A DNA stretch of 64,000 bases from Ectothiorhodospira haloalkaliphila ATCC 51935 (GTDB taxonomy: Bacteria > Pseudomonadota > Gammaproteobacteria > Ectothiorhodospirales > Ectothiorhodospiraceae), in assembly GCF_000633935.1 (NCBI RefSeq), contig NZ_KK214998.1, forward strand, positions 867,844 to 931,843. Direction: 5' to 3'. The translations under genes were made by a program, and so were the position numbers. Numbering within the stretch: the stretch's first letter is position 1; the number at the start of each line of letters is the position of its first letter. Of the stretch, positions 2,269 through 63,975 are shown in pieces. Under the pieces are notes generated by a model. That model saw only the letters and a list, made by a program, of their open reading frames with translations, was not told the DNA's origin and did no database searches.

Positions 2269-4377
2269 ATGACTCTGGACACCGACGACGAAATCCTGAA
2301 CGACTTCCTCATAGAGGCCAGTGAGATCCTGGATGCCCTCGGTGAGCAGTTGGTGCAGTTGGAGCGAACCCCCGACGACAAGGACCTGCTGAACTCCGTC
2401 TTCCGCAGTTTCCACACCATCAAAGGCGGCGCCGGGTTCCTCAATCTGGAAAACCTGGTGAAGATTTGTCACCGCGCCGAGGACGTCTTCAACCTGCTGC
2501 GCCAGGGGCAGCGTCGTGCCGATAGCAACCTGATGGACATCATCCTTCAGGTGCTGGATGTGCTTAACCGGATGTTCGATGAATTGCGTTCTGGCCAGGA
2601 GCCTGAGCCCGCCCCTGACCATCTGCTGGCGGCCCTGGAGCCGCTCACTTACCCCGAGGGAGAAGAACCCGCACACCTGTCCCCCCCTCCCGCAGCGGCG
2701 CCTGCCGAGCCTGCCGAACCAACCCCGGCACCTTCCACCCCCATGCCACCGGTGGAAACGGCTGACGGGGATATCACTGACGAAGAGTTCGAGGCGCTCC
2801 TGGATGCCATGCAGGAGGGCAAGGACAACAAACAGCCCGGAAATGGCGCCGGCACTTCACCGGTGGCGTCACCCGCAGAGGCGACCCAGCAGGGCGGTGA
2901 TGAGATCACGGATGCAGAATTCGAGCAATTGCTGGACGAGCTTCAAGGCAAGGGGGCCTCGGCAGGTGGGCAGTCCACTGCGCCAGCGGCCGGCAGCGGC
3001 CAGGATGAACTGATCTCCGAGGACGAATTCGAGAATCTGCTGGATCAGTTGCATGGCAAGGGTCAGGCCCCCCAGCCTCAGAAGCCGACCGGTGGTGAGA
3101 CCGTCAAGGAAGAGTCCCGGGCAGCCTCGCCGCCGGCTTCCAAGCCGACCTCCACCGGGGAGGCCGCCCCCCCGGAGGCACCCGCGCCCACGCAGGCCAA
3201 GGCAGCGCCGGCAGAGACCTCGGTTCGGGTGGATACCAAGCGCCTGGATGACATCATGAACCTGGTGGGTGAACTGGTTCTGGTGCGTAACCGACTGGCC
3301 ACGCTGCGCTCACGCATGAAGGATGAGCAGGTCTCCAAGGCCGTCACCAATCTGGATGTGGTCACTGCGGATCTGCAGGCCGCAGTCATGAAGACCCGGA
3401 TGCAGCCCATCAAGAAGGTCTTTGGTCGTTTTCCCAGGGTGGTCCGTGATCTGGCGCGCACCCTCAAGAAAGAGATCAACCTGGAGCTGGAGGGAGAGGA
3501 TACCGACCTGGACAAGAATCTGGTGGAGGCCCTGGCCGACCCGCTGGTGCACCTGGTGCGCAATGCGGTTGACCATGGTATTGAATCTCCCGAGGAGCGC
3601 CAGGCAGCGGGCAAGGCACGTGCGGGCCGGGTGGTGCTCTCCGCCAATCAGGAAGGCGACCACATCCTGCTCACCATCTCCGATGACGGCAAGGGAATGG
3701 ATCCCGATGTGTTGCGGGGCAAGGCCGTCGAGAAGGGTATGATGGACGAGGACGCGGCCGCGCGACTGACGGATCATGATGCCTTCAACCTGATCTTCCG
3801 GGCCGGTTTTTCCACCAAGACGGAGATATCCGACGTCTCGGGCCGCGGCGTGGGCATGGATGTGGTCAAGACGCGCATTGCCCAGCTCAACGGTCGCGTG
3901 GAAATCACCTCGGCGCCTGGGCAGGGCAGCACGCTCAGTATTCGTCTTCCTCTGACCCTGGCCATTCTGCCCACCCTGATGGTGGTGCTGGGCAAACAGC
4001 GTTTCGCATTGCCGCTGGCCAATGTCAGCGAGATCTTTGATCTGGATCTGTCGCGTACCAACCGGGTGGATGACCAGGAGGTCATCATGGTCCGTAACCG
4101 TTCCTTGCCGCTTTACTACCTGCGGCGCTGGCTGGTGTCCGGCGACGCACCCGCCGGGGAAGGCGTGGGGCATGTGGTGGTGGTGTTTGCCGGCAACCAG
4201 CGGGTGGGGTTCGTGGTGGACAGCCTCATTGGTCAGGAAGAGGTGGTGATCAAGCCTTTGGGCAATGTCCTGCATGGGGTACCCGGGCTGGCCGGTGCCA
4301 CCATTACCGGTGATGGGGGCATTGCCCTGATCCTTGATGTGCCCGGCTTGTTGAAAAGTTATGCCCGGCGCCTGTGA
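2269..4377 (+). CDS. cheA: Chemotaxis histidine kinase CheA
   Basis: A 702-residue kinase that phosphorylates CheY and CheB in response to MCP arrays. The N-terminal HPt (P1) domain has its phosphorylated His at residue 49 (FHTIKGGAGF). No clear P2 domain is visible. Residues about 130-320 are a Pro/Ala/Glu-rich linker holding three related peptides (ITDEEFEALLDAM, ITDAEFEQLLDEL, ISEDEFENLLDQL) near residues 168, 212 and 247. The P3 dimerisation helices start at about 322 (RLDDIMNLVGELVLVRNRL). P4 has the N box around VRNAVDHGIE and the G boxes SDDGKGMD and GRGVGMDVV. The CheW-like P5 ends the protein. In this gene layout the linker is expected to contact ParP. Confidence 0.96.
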   Translation: MTLDTDDEILNDFLIEASEILDALGEQLVQLERTPDDKDLLNSVFRSFHTIKGGAGFLNLENLVKICHRAEDVFNLLRQGQRRADSNLMDIILQVLDVLNRMFDELRSGQEPEPAPDHLLAALEPLTYPEGEEPAHLSPPPAAAPAEPAEPTPAPSTPMPPVETADGDITDEEFEALLDAMQEGKDNKQPGNGAGTSPVASPAEATQQGGDEITDAEFEQLLDELQGKGASAGGQSTAPAAGSGQDELISEDEFENLLDQLHGKGQAPQPQKPTGGETVKEESRAASPPASKPTSTGEAAPPEAPAPTQAKAAPAETSVRVDTKRLDDIMNLVGELVLVRNRLATLRSRMKDEQVSKAVTNLDVVTADLQAAVMKTRMQPIKKVFGRFPRVVRDLARTLKKEINLELEGEDTDLDKNLVEALADPLVHLVRNAVDHGIESPEERQAAGKARAGRVVLSANQEGDHILLTISDDGKGMDPDVLRGKAVEKGMMDEDAAARLTDHDAFNLIFRAGFSTKTEISDVSGRGVGMDVVKTRIAQLNGRVEITSAPGQGSTLSIRLPLTLAILPTLMVVLGKQRFALPLANVSEIFDLDLSRTNRVDDQEVIMVRNRSLPLYYLRRWLVSGDAPAGEGVGHVVVVFAGNQRVGFVVDSLIGQEEVVIKPLGNVLHGVPGLAGATITGDGGIALILDVPGLLKSYARRL

Positions 4378-4440: not shown

Positions 4441-5562
4441 ATGGCGGTTCGCGTTCTGGTGGTGGATGATTCCGGGTTCTTCCGGCGTCGCATCGTGGAT
4501 ATCCTGAATGCGGACCCCTCCCTTGAGGTGGTGGGTACGGCCAGCAATGGCCAGGAAGCCATTGATCAGGTCATTGCGCTCAAGCCCGATGTGGTGACCA
4601 TGGACATCGAGATGCCCGTGATGGACGGGATCACGGCGGTGCGCCGCATCATGGCGCGTCAGCCCACGGCCATTCTCATGTTCTCATCACTAACCTTCGA
4701 GGGGGCCAAGGCCACCCTGGATGCACTGGAAGCGGGTGCCGTCGATTTTCTGCCCAAGCGTTTCGAGGATATCGCCCGGGATCAGCAGGAAGCCCGTGAT
4801 GTGCTGTGTCGCCGGGTGCGCACCATCGGTCGCCGCGCAGCCGTCAGGTCAGGACGCGACAACGGCTCACGCGCCACGGCACCCGCCCCCAAGTCAGCCC
4901 CTCCGGCCACAGGACGATCGATCGCTCAGCCTTCCGTGGCAACCGCGCCTCGTGCGTCTCGGGGAAGCGGCGACCGGGCGCCCCCGGTTCTGCGGGATTT
5001 CAAGGTGGTGTTGATTGGTACATCAACGGGCGGGCCCCTGGCCTTGCAGAAGGTTCTTGCCGCCCTGCCGGCCCATTTCCCACTCCCCTTGTTGCTGGTT
5101 CAGCACATGCCCGCCAGTTTTACGCCGGCCTTTGCACAGCGCCTGGATCAGCTGTGCAGTATCCGCGTCAAGGAGGCCGAAGACGGTGACGCGCTGCAGC
5201 CTGGCCTTGCCCTGCTGGCTCCCGGGGGACGACAGATGCAGGTGGAGTGTCGCGGCGGGCAGTCGCGGGTGCGTATCACCGAGAGCGCTGTTGATCAGCA
5301 TTATCGACCTTGCGTGGATGTCACTTTCAACTCCGCCGCCGCCTGCTTCCGTGGTGATGCCCTGGTCATCGTGATGACCGGTATGGGGGCGGATGGTCGT
5401 GAGGGTGCCCGGTTGCTCAAGCGATGTGGTTCCACGGTCTGGGCACAGGACGAGGCCACCTGTGTGGTCTACGGCATGCCCGCAGCCATTGCCGAGGCCG
5501 GGTTGGCGGATCGGATATTGCCCTTGCCCCAGATCGGCAAGTTGTTGGCGGAGGCCTGCTGA
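4441..5562 (+). CDS. cheB: Protein-glutamate methylesterase CheB
   Basis: A 373-residue receiver-methylesterase that demethylates or deamidates chemoreceptors for adaptation. The receiver domain (1-125) has the phosphoacceptor D55 in TMDIEMP. A linker rich in Ala, Pro and Arg (about 130-180) leads into the esterase domain. That domain has Ser in IGTSTGGPLALQ, His in VQHMPASF and Asp in MTGMGADGREG as the catalytic triad. No cheR is present in the window; in many polar flagellates it lies elsewhere. motC follows with four bases between the genes. Confidence 0.95.
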   Translation: MAVRVLVVDDSGFFRRRIVDILNADPSLEVVGTASNGQEAIDQVIALKPDVVTMDIEMPVMDGITAVRRIMARQPTAILMFSSLTFEGAKATLDALEAGAVDFLPKRFEDIARDQQEARDVLCRRVRTIGRRAAVRSGRDNGSRATAPAPKSAPPATGRSIAQPSVATAPRASRGSGDRAPPVLRDFKVVLIGTSTGGPLALQKVLAALPAHFPLPLLLVQHMPASFTPAFAQRLDQLCSIRVKEAEDGDALQPGLALLAPGGRQMQVECRGGQSRVRITESAVDQHYRPCVDVTFNSAAACFRGDALVIVMTGMGADGREGARLLKRCGSTVWAQDEATCVVYGMPAAIAEAGLADRILPLPQIGKLLAEAC

Positions 5563-8039: not shown

Positions 8040-8707
8040 AGGATCGTCCACAGAAAACCCTGATCGTTGAAGAACAACAGGCCCTGACCGCCTACCTGGA
8101 TGGTCTGCTTCAGGAGATCGCCCTTGACGAGGCAGAGCCCGAGCCCATCGCCGCGAAGGTGGCGCCAGGTCCGCGGTTGGTGACTCAGCCGAAACTGGTG
8201 TCGGTGCCTCAGGTGGCGCCACCGGTTCCCGCTGCCACGCTGGCACCGCGGCAAGCGATGCCGCCCGACTGGGCCCAGGGTGCCTTTCAGTGTCTGCTGT
8301 TCCGGCTGGCTGGACTGCCGCTTTCGGTTCCTCTGATCAAACTCAACGGCATCATGGAGATGCCCGAGAAGATCACGCCCATGCCGGGCCACAGCCCATT
8401 GTTCATGGGGCTGGTGAATCGCCATGGACGCAAGGTGAAGGTGGTGGATATCACCCAGTTGGTGATGCCCCGGGACCGGATACCTGAGCGTTCGCCGCCA
8501 CGCAATCTCATCCTCATCGATGACGCCCGCTGGGGGCTGGCCTGCGACAGGGTTGAAGAAACCCTGACCGTCACCGCGGAGCAGGTACGATGGCGCTCGT
8601 CCCAGGGCAAGAGGCCCTGGTTGGCTGGCACGATGATCCAGCATCTGTGTGCCATCCTGGATGTGGACTATCTGGCGTCTTCCCTGGAAGACGGCAACTG
8701 GGGTTGA
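8036..8707 (+). CDS. parP: CheW-like polar array protein ParP
   Basis: A 223-residue protein with a Pro/Ala-rich N-terminal half (about 1-85) and a C-terminal CheW-like domain from about 85 (AFQCLLFRLAGLPLSVPLIKL) to about 215. ParP-type proteins link CheA arrays to ParC and the polar landmark through such an array-integrating domain. The start overlaps the parC stop as ATGA. The order parC-parP-cheW matches Vibrio and Pseudomonas. A plain second CheW is the alternative name, but the long N-terminal extension and the neighbour ParC favour ParP. Confidence 0.85.
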   Translation: MKDRPQKTLIVEEQQALTAYLDGLLQEIALDEAEPEPIAAKVAPGPRLVTQPKLVSVPQVAPPVPAATLAPRQAMPPDWAQGAFQCLLFRLAGLPLSVPLIKLNGIMEMPEKITPMPGHSPLFMGLVNRHGRKVKVVDITQLVMPRDRIPERSPPRNLILIDDARWGLACDRVEETLTVTAEQVRWRSSQGKRPWLAGTMIQHLCAILDVDYLASSLEDGNWG

Positions 8708-53713: not shown

Positions 53714-53800
53714 GTTCAAGACCAGAGAAATGCGGTCACCGGGGGTCAGCGAACCGGTCCGGTGGCCGCAGTCCCGATTTCATACCTCAAGGGAGATACG

Positions 53801-54688
53801 ATGATGTATAAATGGCTGATTGGCCTGGTGTTGCTGGTGTCCACCGCCACCGCCCAGGCTGCTGTGAACGTAGTGGCGACCACGCCTGCCATGGGCATGC
53901 TGGCGGAAACGGTGGGCGGCGATGCCGTGTCGGTGCGGGTGCTGGCGCCGGCGGATCGCGACGCCCATTATCTGCAGGCCCGGCCCAGCATGATGGCCGC
54001 CCTGCGGGGCGCGGATCTGGTGGTCTCGGTCGGTGCCGAGCTTGAAGTGGGCTGGTTGCCCGCCGCCATTCGCGGCGCCAACAACCCCGGCGTCTTCCCC
54101 GGCCGCAGCGGTTATTTCGAGGCTGCCGCCCAGGTGGACCTGATCGGCGTGGGCGGCCCCGCCGACCGGGCGCTGGGTGACGTGCACCCGGCAGGTAACC
54201 CCCATGTGAACATGGATCCGGTGCGCATGGCCCAGGTGGCCCACGCCCTGGCCGAGCGGCTGATCCGCTTCGATTCCGCCAATGCCGAGCTGTTCCGCGC
54301 CAATGCCGAGGCCTTCGAGCGCAAGGTGGAGGAGCACCTGCCCGTCTGGCGGGAGCGGGTGGCCGATGCACCGGGTGTCGTGTTCTTCCATGAGGATGCC
54401 GACTACCTGGCCAAGCGCCTCGATGTCCCTGTGCTCGGCTATGTGGAGCCGCTGCCGGGCATTCCCCCCACCGCCCGTCATCTGCGTGATCTGGTGCGTG
54501 ATCTGGAAGGCCGGGATGGCGTGGTGATCCGTGCCACCTTCCATCAGGAACGGGGCCCCCGTTTCGTGGGCGAGCAACTGGACTGGCCCGTGTATGCCCT
54601 GCCGCTGGATCCGGAGGTGGGCGCCACCGCGGACGATTACTTTGATCTGATCGGGCAGTGGGTGGACGCCATGGCAGGTAAACTCTAA
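53801..54688 (+). CDS. znuA: Metal ABC transporter substrate-binding protein (ZnuA family)
   Basis: A 295-residue periplasmic cluster-A-I binding protein with a signal peptide (MMYKWLIGLVLLVSTATAQA). Metal ligands are expected at the His of DAHYLQARPSMM, the His of VHPAGNPHVNMDP and the His of FFHEDADYLAK, plus a C-terminal acidic residue. The His-rich loop typical of many ZnuA proteins is absent, so manganese or iron cannot be excluded from this protein alone; the Zur-like box and operon favour zinc. GGGAG lies five bases before the ATG at 53801. Confidence 0.85.
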   Translation: MMYKWLIGLVLLVSTATAQAAVNVVATTPAMGMLAETVGGDAVSVRVLAPADRDAHYLQARPSMMAALRGADLVVSVGAELEVGWLPAAIRGANNPGVFPGRSGYFEAAAQVDLIGVGGPADRALGDVHPAGNPHVNMDPVRMAQVAHALAERLIRFDSANAELFRANAEAFERKVEEHLPVWRERVADAPGVVFFHEDADYLAKRLDVPVLGYVEPLPGIPPTARHLRDLVRDLEGRDGVVIRATFHQERGPRFVGEQLDWPVYALPLDPEVGATADDYFDLIGQWVDAMAGKL

Positions 54689-54691
54689 AGC

Positions 54692-55261
54692 ATGAAGAGT
54701 GAAGCCTTGTTGCGGTGCCACGGGGTCGTCGCCGGGTATGAACACCCGGTGGTCGGCCCCGTCACCTTTGAACTTTTTCGTGGCGAGGTCCTGGGGCTTT
54801 TGGGCAGCAATGGGGCGGGCAAGTCCACCCTCATCAAGGCCATCACCGGGCACGCCAGGATCTTTCGGGGCCGACTGGAAACCGCGCCCGGCATTGAGCT
54901 GGCCCATCATCGCCAGCAGCCGGTTCGACCGGCTGAATGCCCCCTCTCCGGTCATGACCTGGTGACCCTCACCGGGGCCTCTCGCCAGACACCACCACCG
55001 CAGATCGCCCGGCTGCTGGACGGTCGCGTGGATCAGCTCAGTGGCGGGCAGTTCCAGATCCTGCAGATCTGGGCCTGCCTGGGGAGCGGGGCGGAGGTGG
55101 TGCTGCTGGACGAGCCCACGAATAACCTGGATCCCGCCACGGTGGAGGCGCTGGTCAACCTCATCCGCAAGGATCAGGCGGGCCGCACCATCCTGGTGGT
55201 CAGTCACGAGGCATCCTTCATCGATGCCATCTGTTCCCGCGTTGTCTCGGTGAGTGCCTGA
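54692..55261 (+). CDS. znuC: Metal ABC transporter ATP-binding protein
   Basis: A 189-residue ATPase subunit. Walker A is GSNGAGKSTLIKAI, the signature is LSGGQFQILQIWACL and Walker B is VVLLDEPTNNLDP, with the switch His in VVSHEASF. It is shorter than a typical ZnuC (about 230-260), lacking most of the region between Walker A and signature and the C-terminal extension, yet all catalytic motifs are intact. It starts three bases after the binding-protein stop and overlaps the permease start by one base (TGATG). Confidence 0.83.
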   Translation: MKSEALLRCHGVVAGYEHPVVGPVTFELFRGEVLGLLGSNGAGKSTLIKAITGHARIFRGRLETAPGIELAHHRQQPVRPAECPLSGHDLVTLTGASRQTPPPQIARLLDGRVDQLSGGQFQILQIWACLGSGAEVVLLDEPTNNLDPATVEALVNLIRKDQAGRTILVVSHEASFIDAICSRVVSVSA

Positions 55262-56115
55262 TGCTGGAATTACTGTTTGACCCCCTGTTTCGATTGCCCT
55301 TCATCACCGGTCTGTTGCTGGCACCGGTGGCCGCCATTGCCGGCGTGTATCTGCGCCTGCGGGAGGAGTGGCTGGCGGCCCTGGCTTATGCCCAGGTGGC
55401 CGCCGCCGGGGCGGTGGTGGCCGTGGTGCTCCATGCCCCCGTCATGCTCGGTGCCCTGGCCGCGGCCGGGCTGGTGGCCACGGTCAAGGGGCTGCTGGCC
55501 AACCCGGGCAATCATCACTTCGTCATCTTCATCCTGCTGGGCTGGGGTGTGGCCCTGGTGGCCGGATCCTTCAGTGCCCATGGAGAGATGGTGGGCCAGT
55601 CCCTCATGGACGGGCAGCTGTACTTCACTGGCCAGGCCCATTTGCTGGGCGCTCTGGCCCTGCTGGTGATCGGCACGCTGTGCATGTCCTGGCTGAGCCA
55701 GCGCCTGCTCATGGACCGTTTCTTCCCGGACTATTTCTCCGCCAACGGCATTCCCGCCTGGCGGCACCGGGTGGCCTTCGACTGGCTGGTGGTGGCCATC
55801 GTTGCTGTGGCCACCACGGCCTTTGGTGTGATGGCGGCCTTCGCGCTGCTCTTCATCCCCGCCTGGGTGGCCTGGGGGGTGGCCCAGGGCTGGCGCAACG
55901 TGCTGATCATTGCCGCAGGGCTGGCGGTGGTGGCCTATGTGATTGCCTTCGTCGTGGCGGTCGCCGTGGACCAGCCCTTCGGGCCCATGCTGGTGCTGAT
56001 CCTGTGTGCGACGGCCTTGCTCAGGTTTGCACGTCGCGGAGTCAGATCGGCGTCTCCTTCAGCCGCACCGGCCCGCGCGCCGTCGGTGGCCCCGGAAGCC
56101 GCCCATCGCAAGTGA
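55261..56115 (+). CDS. znuB: Metal ABC transporter permease (ZnuB family)
   Basis: A 284-residue inner-membrane permease of the ABC-3 family with about eight hydrophobic helices. Family features include PFITGLLLAPVAAIAGVYL, LRLREEWLAALAYAQVAAAG and a later AFGVMAAFALLFIPAWVAWG. The C-terminal tail after about residue 262 is Ala/Pro/Arg-rich. It completes a four-gene import set with the porin. Confidence 0.85.
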   Translation: MLELLFDPLFRLPFITGLLLAPVAAIAGVYLRLREEWLAALAYAQVAAAGAVVAVVLHAPVMLGALAAAGLVATVKGLLANPGNHHFVIFILLGWGVALVAGSFSAHGEMVGQSLMDGQLYFTGQAHLLGALALLVIGTLCMSWLSQRLLMDRFFPDYFSANGIPAWRHRVAFDWLVVAIVAVATTAFGVMAAFALLFIPAWVAWGVAQGWRNVLIIAAGLAVVAYVIAFVVAVAVDQPFGPMLVLILCATALLRFARRGVRSASPSAAPARAPSVAPEAAHRK

Positions 56116-56151: not shown

Positions 56152-56634
56152 CTATCGCACCAGATGACGTCGATACACGTAGAGGTGCACGGCCAGTGCC
56201 ACCACGAAGGCCCAGCCGGTGGTGGCATGCCAGTGCTTCCATCCCCGAGGCCTTAATTCCGCCACCGCCAGGGAGACGCCCAGGCTGACCAGCATGGCCA
56301 CCTTGGCCACCCGGTTCACCCGCATCCGCAACGGACGCGGTCCCCGGCGACGGGGTGGGCGTGCCGGCGTGCTCCGCTTGGCACCGGGGGCGGCAGGGGG
56401 CATGCCCAGATGAGGTCGGGCGATCTCCAGGGCCTCCTGCTCCATCCGTGCCCTGGGCAGGCGTGCCACGTCATATTCCACCACCAGACTGCCGGCCCGG
56501 CGGTTGCCCCTCAACCCGGTCACGGCGGGATGATCCTGGAACAGGGATTCCAGCGTCCTGAGCGTGGAGGATTCTTGCAGGCCCTTGTCACGCAGACGCA
56601 GGCGCCCGGGAATGGATGCGACGATGAGGTTCAT
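56152..56634 (-). CDS. HMA-like N-terminal domain with a C-terminal membrane segment
   Basis: A 160-residue protein. The first 80 residues (IVASIPGRLRLRDKGLQESS, then LRTLESLFQDHPAVTGLRGN and GSLVVEYD) resemble a heavy-metal-associated fold of the kind found in HMA2 proteins, without the CXXC metal site. A basic Pro/Arg linker leads to two hydrophobic helices (about 108-128 and 138-153). Its upstream region holds a Fur-like box (56674-56692), so iron control is likely. The function is unknown. Confidence 0.65.
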   Translation of the reverse strand: MNLIVASIPGRLRLRDKGLQESSTLRTLESLFQDHPAVTGLRGNRRAGSLVVEYDVARLPRARMEQEALEIARPHLGMPPAAPGAKRSTPARPPRRRGPRPLRMRVNRVAKVAMLVSLGVSLAVAELRPRGWKHWHATTGWAFVVALAVHLYVYRRHLVR

Positions 56635-56673
56635 GGCTCAAGCATGCCCTTTCAGGCCACACTCTTCAATATG

Positions 56674-56692
56674 ATGAATGAAAATCATTTTA
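56674..56692. promoter_or_regulatory. Fur-like box (upstream of the HMA-like gene)
   Basis: Matches 13 of 19 bases of GATAATGATAATCATTATC, with the core AATGAAAATCATT nearly symmetric. It lies 40 bases before the minus-strand HMA-like gene and just upstream of the plus-strand promoter at 56716. Confidence 0.6.
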
Positions 56693-56715
56693 TTGAGTAA
56701 GATGGCATTGGAAGG

Positions 56716-56756
56716 TTGACAGGTAGTGCGAATTAACTATAATGAGAATCAGTTAC
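56716..56756 (+). promoter_or_regulatory. Perfect-consensus sigma-70 promoter overlapped by a Fur-like box
   Basis: TTGACA at 56716-56721, a 16-bp spacer, then TATAAT at 56738-56743. The segment 56738-56756 matches 14 of 19 bases of the Fur consensus and covers the -10 and start point (predicted near 56750). Both hexamers match consensus fully. No protein gene lies downstream on this strand. Confidence 0.7.
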
Positions 56757-56776
56757 ATTTGATGTCAGGCACCGGG

Positions 56777-56820
56777 GTGCTGCCGGCTTTTTTTCCCGTT
56801 GAGGTCGGCGGCACTTTTTT
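56777..56820 (+). terminator. Hairpin with T6 inside the candidate small RNA
   Basis: GTGCTGCCG (56777-56785) pairs with CGGCGGCAC (56806-56814, one G-T pair), followed by TTTTTT at 56815-56820. A T7 run also lies in the loop. It could be an early terminator or attenuator for the transcript starting near 56750. Confidence 0.5.
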
Positions 56821-56931
56821 CTGGCGCACCCCGCGCGTTTCATCGCCCTCAAGGGGCCATCCCACCCAACCTGGCAGGAGGTGATTGATTGCGGAAACGG
56901 CTCAAGTGACAAGACAAACCTACGAGATAGA

Positions 56932-56968
56932 GGAGCGGCCTGCCCGAAAGGGTTGAGCCGCTCCTTTT
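56932..56968 (+). terminator. Strong intrinsic terminator ending the candidate small RNA
   Basis: GGAGCGGC (56932-56939) pairs with GCCGCTCC (56957-56964) with an inner CCC-GAAA-GGG mini-stem, followed by four T residues (56965-56968). Read on the minus strand no T run follows, so it serves plus-strand transcription rather than the cytochrome gene. Confidence 0.65.
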
Positions 56969-56976
56969 CGTTCAGG

Positions 56977-57363
56977 CTATTGAGACAGAATCCATTCCAC
57001 CAGGCTCTCCAGGGTGCCCTCGCCGAAATGATCATCCACCCAGGCGTTGGGGGTCATGAACTGTTGCCCCCATTCACCCGAACCCCCCTCCCTGACCTTT
57101 GCCACCAGCTTGTCCGTGACATTCTGTCCGCGATAGCGCTCCGCCACGTCCTGGTAACTGGGCCCGACCGGATGATCCCGATCCACGAAATGACATCCCA
57201 TGCAGCCTGCCTCGGTGGCTCTTTGCAGCATGTCCGCGGATACCGCCTGCGGCCCGGCAGCCAGCCCCAAGGCGCCGATCAAGGGCAGTGACATGAGCAG
57301 TTTCCCGGCAGGGCGCCCGGACAGACGACGGCGCGGGGAATGGTCTTCTTGGTATTGTTTCAT
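56977..57363 (-). CDS. Small c-type cytochrome
   Basis: A 128-residue periplasmic monoheme cytochrome. Signal sequence with a basic start (MKQYQEDHSPRRRL) and a hydrophobic stretch (LLMSLPLIGALGLAAG). The heme motif CMGCH is in EAGCMGCHFVDRDHPVGPSY. The likely axial Met is in FMTPNAWV, and the closing helix is GTLESLVEWILSQ. It resembles class I cytochrome c551/c552. In-frame reading upstream of ATG 57363 gives no plausible start. It could carry electrons in respiration or photosynthesis; context does not decide. It lies upstream of the heme cluster but is separated from it by 124 bp. Confidence 0.87.
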   Translation of the reverse strand: MKQYQEDHSPRRRLSGRPAGKLLMSLPLIGALGLAAGPQAVSADMLQRATEAGCMGCHFVDRDHPVGPSYQDVAERYRGQNVTDKLVAKVREGGSGEWGQQFMTPNAWVDDHFGEGTLESLVEWILSQ

Positions 57364-57487
57364 GCGTTGCTCCTCCAGAAGGGACGGACAGGTAAAAAGC
57401 TGAAAGGCCAGCGGCCTTCCAGCGGATGATGCCGCCATGGGCGGCGGTGACCGAGGATGAAGGGATAGCTGCTGCGTGGCAGGCGGT

Positions 57488-63946: not shown

Positions 63947-63975
63947 AATGATAATTATTATCATTACGTTGTCAA
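63947..63975 (-). promoter_or_regulatory. Perfect Fur palindrome and promoter of the heme operon
   Basis: AATGATAAT, one base, ATTATCATT at 63947-63965 is a perfect 9-1-9 inverted repeat matching the Fur box. On the minus strand TTGACA (63975-63970) and TATCAT (63953-63948) are 16 bp apart, so the Fur site sits between and over the -10. Fur-Fe would block transcription of the receptor operon. Confidence 0.85.

Follow-up and report, generated by a model that had tools for sequence, protein, structure and literature searches.

The stretch of DNA analysed here (the window; 64,000 nucleotides of the Ectothiorhodospira haloalkaliphila ATCC 51935 genome, contig NZ_KK214998.1, positions 867,844 to 931,843) contains, between a gene for an HMA/DUF4405-like small protein and a cytochrome c gene, what is probably a Fur-repressed small RNA (sRNA) gene with a product of about 70 nt. 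The interval carries a predicted promoter, a Fur-like box and terminators and appears to hold no supported gene, and genes assigned to Fur and Hfq are present in the genome; from this arrangement we infer transcription, binding of Fur and of Hfq, base-pairing and any target. A preliminary description of the locus had proposed a regulatory RNA, a peptide mRNA, or both. A Fur-repressed short transcript fits the anatomy best and was strengthened by the likeness of its promoter to that of a TonB-receptor gene, by the Fur and Hfq genes and by the promoter-terminator statistics; conservation was not found.

The promoter (56716-56743, plus strand) is of the sigma-70 type, TTGACA-16-TATAAT, and matches at 12 of 12 positions, as had been described. 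It is the sole perfect promoter in the window when spacers of 15-19 are allowed, and perfect promoters were absent from all 60 random windows generated with a Markov-1 model. Fur-like boxes were scored as matches out of 19 to a consensus. The putative box 1 (56738-56756, plus strand; 14/19), with the core AATGAGAATCAGT (two mismatches), covers the -10 and the expected start site, in agreement with the overlap claimed before. Boxes of 14/19 averaged 0.18 per random window (here and below, of the same dinucleotide make-up as the real window) and higher scores did not occur. The real window holds another 14/19 site at 5287, plus a 16/19 box at 63950.

The first intrinsic terminator (56777-56820, plus strand) consists of a stem-loop of 14 pairs at 56777-56814 (-22.7 kcal/mol) and a T6 tract at 56815-56820, which starts 71 nt beyond the -10. 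The second hairpin (56932-56968, plus strand) has its stem-loop at 56932-56964 (-24.5 kcal/mol) and a T4 tract at 56965-56968. Both structures had been noted previously, and both were recovered, ranking fourth and third, respectively, among the 80 T-tracts of the window. Since 12 nt separate the stem of the second hairpin from the cytochrome c stop codon, this hairpin is probably a terminator between convergent units rather than the main end of the RNA. The predicted RNA of about 70 nt (56751-56820, plus strand; start placed from the -10) would comprise a 5' part of about 23 nt, the terminator stem-loop and the T6 tract. Its fold gave a z-score of -2.64 (2 of 200 shuffles as good), and that of the 222-nt form a z-score of -3.27 (0/200). 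When the whole RNA was folded the terminator stem had 17 pairs, compared with 14 in the T-tract analysis. The earlier proposal of RNAs of about 70 and 220 nt thus stands as far as both lengths fit, given a start near 56751 deduced from the -10; the 220-nt form is at best a weak candidate.

To count as a promoter-plus-terminator unit, a promoter had to score at least 10/12 and have, 45-260 nt downstream, a hairpin of -15 kcal/mol or below with a T tract. One such unit was found in the window, that of the orphan promoter, with both hairpins. Any unit at all was seen in 1 of 100 random windows, and none of these windows had one with a promoter of at least 11/12. These counts bear on the explanation by chance, according to which an AT-rich intergenic stretch mimics a promoter and a Fur box and the hairpins belong to the 3' end of the cytochrome side. 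The stretch is indeed poor in G+C (38% across 56635-56749 vs 64% for the window), the interval is not conserved, and short matches to box 1 at two gene starts (among 369 genomes, see below) show that AT-rich stretches of this sort arise readily. However, random windows with a matching dinucleotide composition fail to yield such a unit and the T6 hairpin has its T tract in the plus direction only, so that chance is considered an improbable account.

The TonB-receptor promoter (63948-63975, minus strand), TTGACA-16-TATCAT, has its -10 inside the 16/19 Fur box, which spans 63950-63968 and is the best in the window. A search for TTGACA-N16-TATNAT with at most one mismatch returned two sites in the window, the orphan and the TonB-receptor promoters, both with 0 mismatches; two or more such sites were held by 2 of 100 shuffles. 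The layout of the TonB-receptor promoter is the same in the E. haloalkaliphila genome (G000, whose contig C4 contains the window) and in two other genomes of the genus (G007 and G009). A TTGACA followed after 16 nt by a -10 set in a Fur box is apparently the local design of this organism for Fur-repressed promoters and, because the TonB-receptor promoter has this layout, the orphan promoter looks like another case of it. The genes behind the TonB-receptor promoter code for the receptor, a periplasmic binding protein, a FecCD permease, an ABC ATPase and a HutW-like radical SAM protein (TIGR04107 best, under its cut-off); the presence of the last suggests heme as the substrate.

Three Fur-family genes (the best at C2:514668) and one Hfq gene (C4:490186) were found in the genome. 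A search of the same genome for the Fur core with up to two mismatches gave 77 matches vs 17 for the reversed control, and 14 stretches of the 77 were inspected. Five sites with a GAGAA core were opened; a flavodoxin gene follows one of them and a metal-binding-protein-like gene another. In L163 (G000:C4:933700-936300), near position 1108, the Fur-like core AATGAGAAGCATT stands about 28 nt ahead of the flavodoxin gene (PF00258), a placement that would suit a protein of iron starvation.

A second Fur-like box (box 2; 56674-56692, strand unassigned) scores 13/19, has one mismatch to AATGATAATNATT and sits 39 nt upstream of the ATG of the minus-strand HMA-like gene. It is probably the operator of that gene, although by itself a score of 13/19 does not exceed chance expectation (1.4 such boxes per random window). 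A minus-strand promoter-like site (9/12) overlaps box 1. According to a rival account, the Fur boxes serve the HMA-like gene and the plus-strand transcript is a functionless short by-product of a divergent operator, stopped by the terminator. The position of box 2, the minus-strand site over box 1 and the lack of conservation in the genomes searched are all in line with it. On the other hand, a perfect promoter with a strong T6 terminator of its own exceeds what a by-product needs, and at 9/12 the minus-strand promoter is poor. The account is possible, though rather unlikely.

The interval measures 342 nt between two minus-strand genes, those for the HMA/DUF4405-like protein (56152-56634; upstream and divergent) and for cytochrome c (56977-57363; PF00034, over its cut-off; downstream and convergent). 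The label "HMA-like" given to the former did not receive support from Pfam, in which DUF4405 was its sole family, and that under the cut-off. Five plus-strand frames of the interval, one of which starts with GTG, codes for 136 aa and extends antisense into the cytochrome c gene, gave no Pfam family match, two of them also none at E 10. With both neighbours on the minus strand, this bears out the statement that no plus-strand gene follows the promoter.

The preliminary description had pointed to an almost perfect Shine-Dalgarno (SD) sequence before a 22-codon frame. The SD-like word, AGGAGGTGA, is present at 56876-56884 (plus strand) and, with a TTG frame of 23 codons, extends to 56956; the TTG lies 3 nt behind AGGAGG and the frame ends inside the second hairpin. 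A peptide mRNA or a dual-function RNA would be a 220-nt read-through form translated from this frame, and both the SD-like word and the second terminator, which would end such a form, speak for it. However, the word is expected about 0.5 times per window and was held at least once by 41 of 100 window shuffles, the distance to the TTG is 3 nt and there is no ATG, the frame lies behind the T6 terminator, and neither a Pfam match nor, in the genomes searched, a homologue was found. The word and frame were judged a chance occurrence and the peptide reading was rejected as highly improbable. Over 56865-56893 the minus strand reads like an anti-Shine-Dalgarno sequence (CAATCACCTCC), and a long stem, GGAGCGGCTCAA/TTGAGCCGTTTCC, is possible there.

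For the Fur-repressed sRNA gene, the following mode of action is proposed. In the presence of iron, Fur bound to box 1, over the -10 and the start site, would block RNA polymerase. Without iron, nothing would occlude the strong promoter, and transcription from about 56751 to the T6 terminator at 56820 would yield an RNA of about 70 nt. This RNA would pair, perhaps with the help of Hfq, with mRNAs produced during iron starvation. Base-pairing is the most likely mode because the 5' part is weakly structured and the terminator hairpin is stable, with a U/C-rich loop.

Several results weigh against such a gene, and they are gathered here. Those on homologues and targets speak also against a general iron-sparing role; iron sparing had been suggested in the preliminary description. 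A 14/19 box alone would be weaker evidence in a window with another site of that score. In the predicted minimum-energy fold part of the 5' region is paired, as a weak small hairpin (3 pairs in the centroid). Pairing of the RNA with the starts of 50 window genes was no better than that of shuffles, which equalled or surpassed it in 81 of 100 cases for the 5' part and in 79 of 100 for the loop; these gene starts were set by a rough rule of codon position and SD sequence, and were uncurated. Rfam holds families for RyhB, PrrF and NrrF. Covariance models run at gathering score over the whole window gave no match, and at E 10 over 56640-57000 they gave four, none named for any of the three; one of these, anti-hemB (E 5.5), was rejected as chance. 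Two of the five sites with a GAGAA core are unclear, and another falls within a long frame. A narrow search of the 10 genomes of the genus found no equivalent unit downstream of near-consensus Fur boxes, the pattern being strict (18 sites in 7 of the 10 genomes; the box of the orphan promoter itself would be missed). The sole partial match, at L187, was an 8/12 promoter followed 195 nt later by a weak hairpin (-13.0 kcal/mol).

Conservation speaks in the same direction. DNA homologous to the interval was found in 1 of 40 relatives, the genome itself, and in 1 of 47 genomes of the family and order at E 0.001. In a sample of the class, 4 of 369 genomes matched; the three besides E. haloalkaliphila were short matches judged to be chance. 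Up to 16 candidates per genome were scored in the set of 47 and up to two in that of 369, which overlaps partly with the other two sets. Where synteny permits comparison, in G007 and G009, the interval is missing. As the relatives do not have the interval, base-pair covariation cannot support the stems. Conserved promoter and hairpins, on which the preliminary description had made its proposal depend, were found in none of the relatives in the 40, 47 and 369 genomes; the anatomy itself holds.

The weaker matches were followed individually. At E 0.01, 6 of the 47 family and order genomes matched, and the five others (22-63 nt, E 0.007-0.008) were rejected as homologues, lying inside long reading frames. 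Two of the class matches (G265 and G325; E 2.8e-6 and 1.2e-4 per genome) were likewise rejected, as box 1 matched the starts of unrelated reading frames. The third (G314) was an intergenic match of 29 nt at 56865-56893, 26 of them alike and 17 identical in a row. The exact 16-mer GGAGGTGATTGATTGC occurs in 3 of the 369 genomes, namely that of E. haloalkaliphila, G025 and G314. The latter two belong to one genus of another family and align with each other over about 190 nt, and with the window over 26-29 nt only, so that they count as one coincidence. In them (L198, L199) the 29-nt stretch is part of a conserved intergenic element with a terminator, on which Rfam gave nothing firm. The recurrence is thus probably due to chance, with one independent match in 369 genomes. 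In the 10 genus genomes, searched at E up to 10, all matches other than the own copy were short. Plasmid records gave no match at E 0.01; 15 of the 72,556 records matched the 3' half with E values between 0.5 and 6, which was taken as chance.

The distance from the hutW stop codon to the ATG of the HMA-like gene is 57 nt in G007, vs 853 nt in the window, and the HutW-like protein of G007 is 90% identical. In G009 (HutW-like protein 81% identical) the HMA-like gene is a remnant whose start is 56 nt from hutW. The cytochrome c gene was found in 3 of the 10 genus genomes, including that of E. haloalkaliphila, and is missing from G007 and G009. Of 148 loci, 80 were kept as its named relatives, and neighbouring RNAs were looked at in the pair of E. 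shaposhnikovii genomes (G002/G003). The simplest account would be that the E. haloalkaliphila lineage gained a segment carrying the genes for cytochrome c and for the RNA, the alternative being a loss in the others. The sequence before the ATG of the HMA-like gene aligned between E. haloalkaliphila and G007 with a score of 25, no better than the maximum of 26 in 200 shuffles, and so does not define precisely where the gained segment ends. An unlikely extension of this account is that the roughly 0.8 kb gained between hutW and the HMA-like gene carried both the cytochrome c gene and a new, Fur-controlled iron-sparing RNA. Such a recently gained RNA would spare iron in an anoxygenic phototroph, for example by silencing photosynthetic or respiratory iron proteins.

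Further observations were made around the locus. The cytochrome c homologue of G003 has a perfect Fur core, ATGATAATCATT, some 31 nt ahead of the start assigned to it (L191; G003:C39:155207-155218), so in this genus the cytochrome may belong to the iron-starvation proteins. A strong terminator-like hairpin (57399-57423, minus strand; 11 pairs, T5) separates hutW from cytochrome c, which may therefore be a transcription unit of its own. In G009 (L042, about 3148-3357; L050, 8082-8106 and about 8192-8401), hutW and the truncated HMA-like gene have beside them a Fur-like box of 14/19 and a small gene that looks HemP-like by eye, together with an apparent repeat, also seen by eye, of the HMA start region; the hutW/HMA-like region of this genome looks like a place of frequent change. 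Genes for a metal ABC transporter (ZnuA-like binding protein, ATPase and ABC-3 permease) lie beside the locus at 53762-56115 (plus strand), with Azt zinc proteins among their best NCBIfam matches, all under cut-off.

RyhB, PrrF, NrrF, HrrF and BrrF are Fur- or iron-repressed, trans-acting sRNAs. The candidate resembles them in the Fur-like box on a strong sigma-70 promoter, the short intergenic unit, the intrinsic terminator and the presence of Hfq and Fur genes. It differs in matching no Rfam family named for RyhB, PrrF or NrrF even at E 10 and in having no known target, and it was not found in the relatives searched. FsrA of Bacillus subtilis and IsrR of Staphylococcus, whose hosts belong to another phylum, are of the same kind, being iron-repressed sRNAs of the iron-sparing response; the candidate differs from them in lacking an Rfam match and target evidence. 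It would be a lineage-specific member of a known functional kind, outside the Rfam families. Fur- or iron-controlled sRNAs such as RyhB, PrrF, NrrF and FsrA are a well-known kind, and iron-responsive sRNAs are known from several unrelated bacteria (PMC11005374). One of them, RusT of Caulobacter crescentus, is iron-responsive and outside the RyhB family, as the candidate would be, which differs in its Fur-like box on the promoter (PMC11005374). In the open-access literature searched, titles and the beginnings of abstracts gave no such RNA for Ectothiorhodospira or purple sulfur bacteria.

Since a phototroph needs much iron, a Fur-controlled RNA would come as no surprise in this organism. The locus offers an exact predicted start, end and strand for the candidate. 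As the relatives examined are without it, the locus could show how fast such RNAs appear or vanish and, if the recent gain is true, it would be an example of an iron-sparing RNA that originated anew in a single species.
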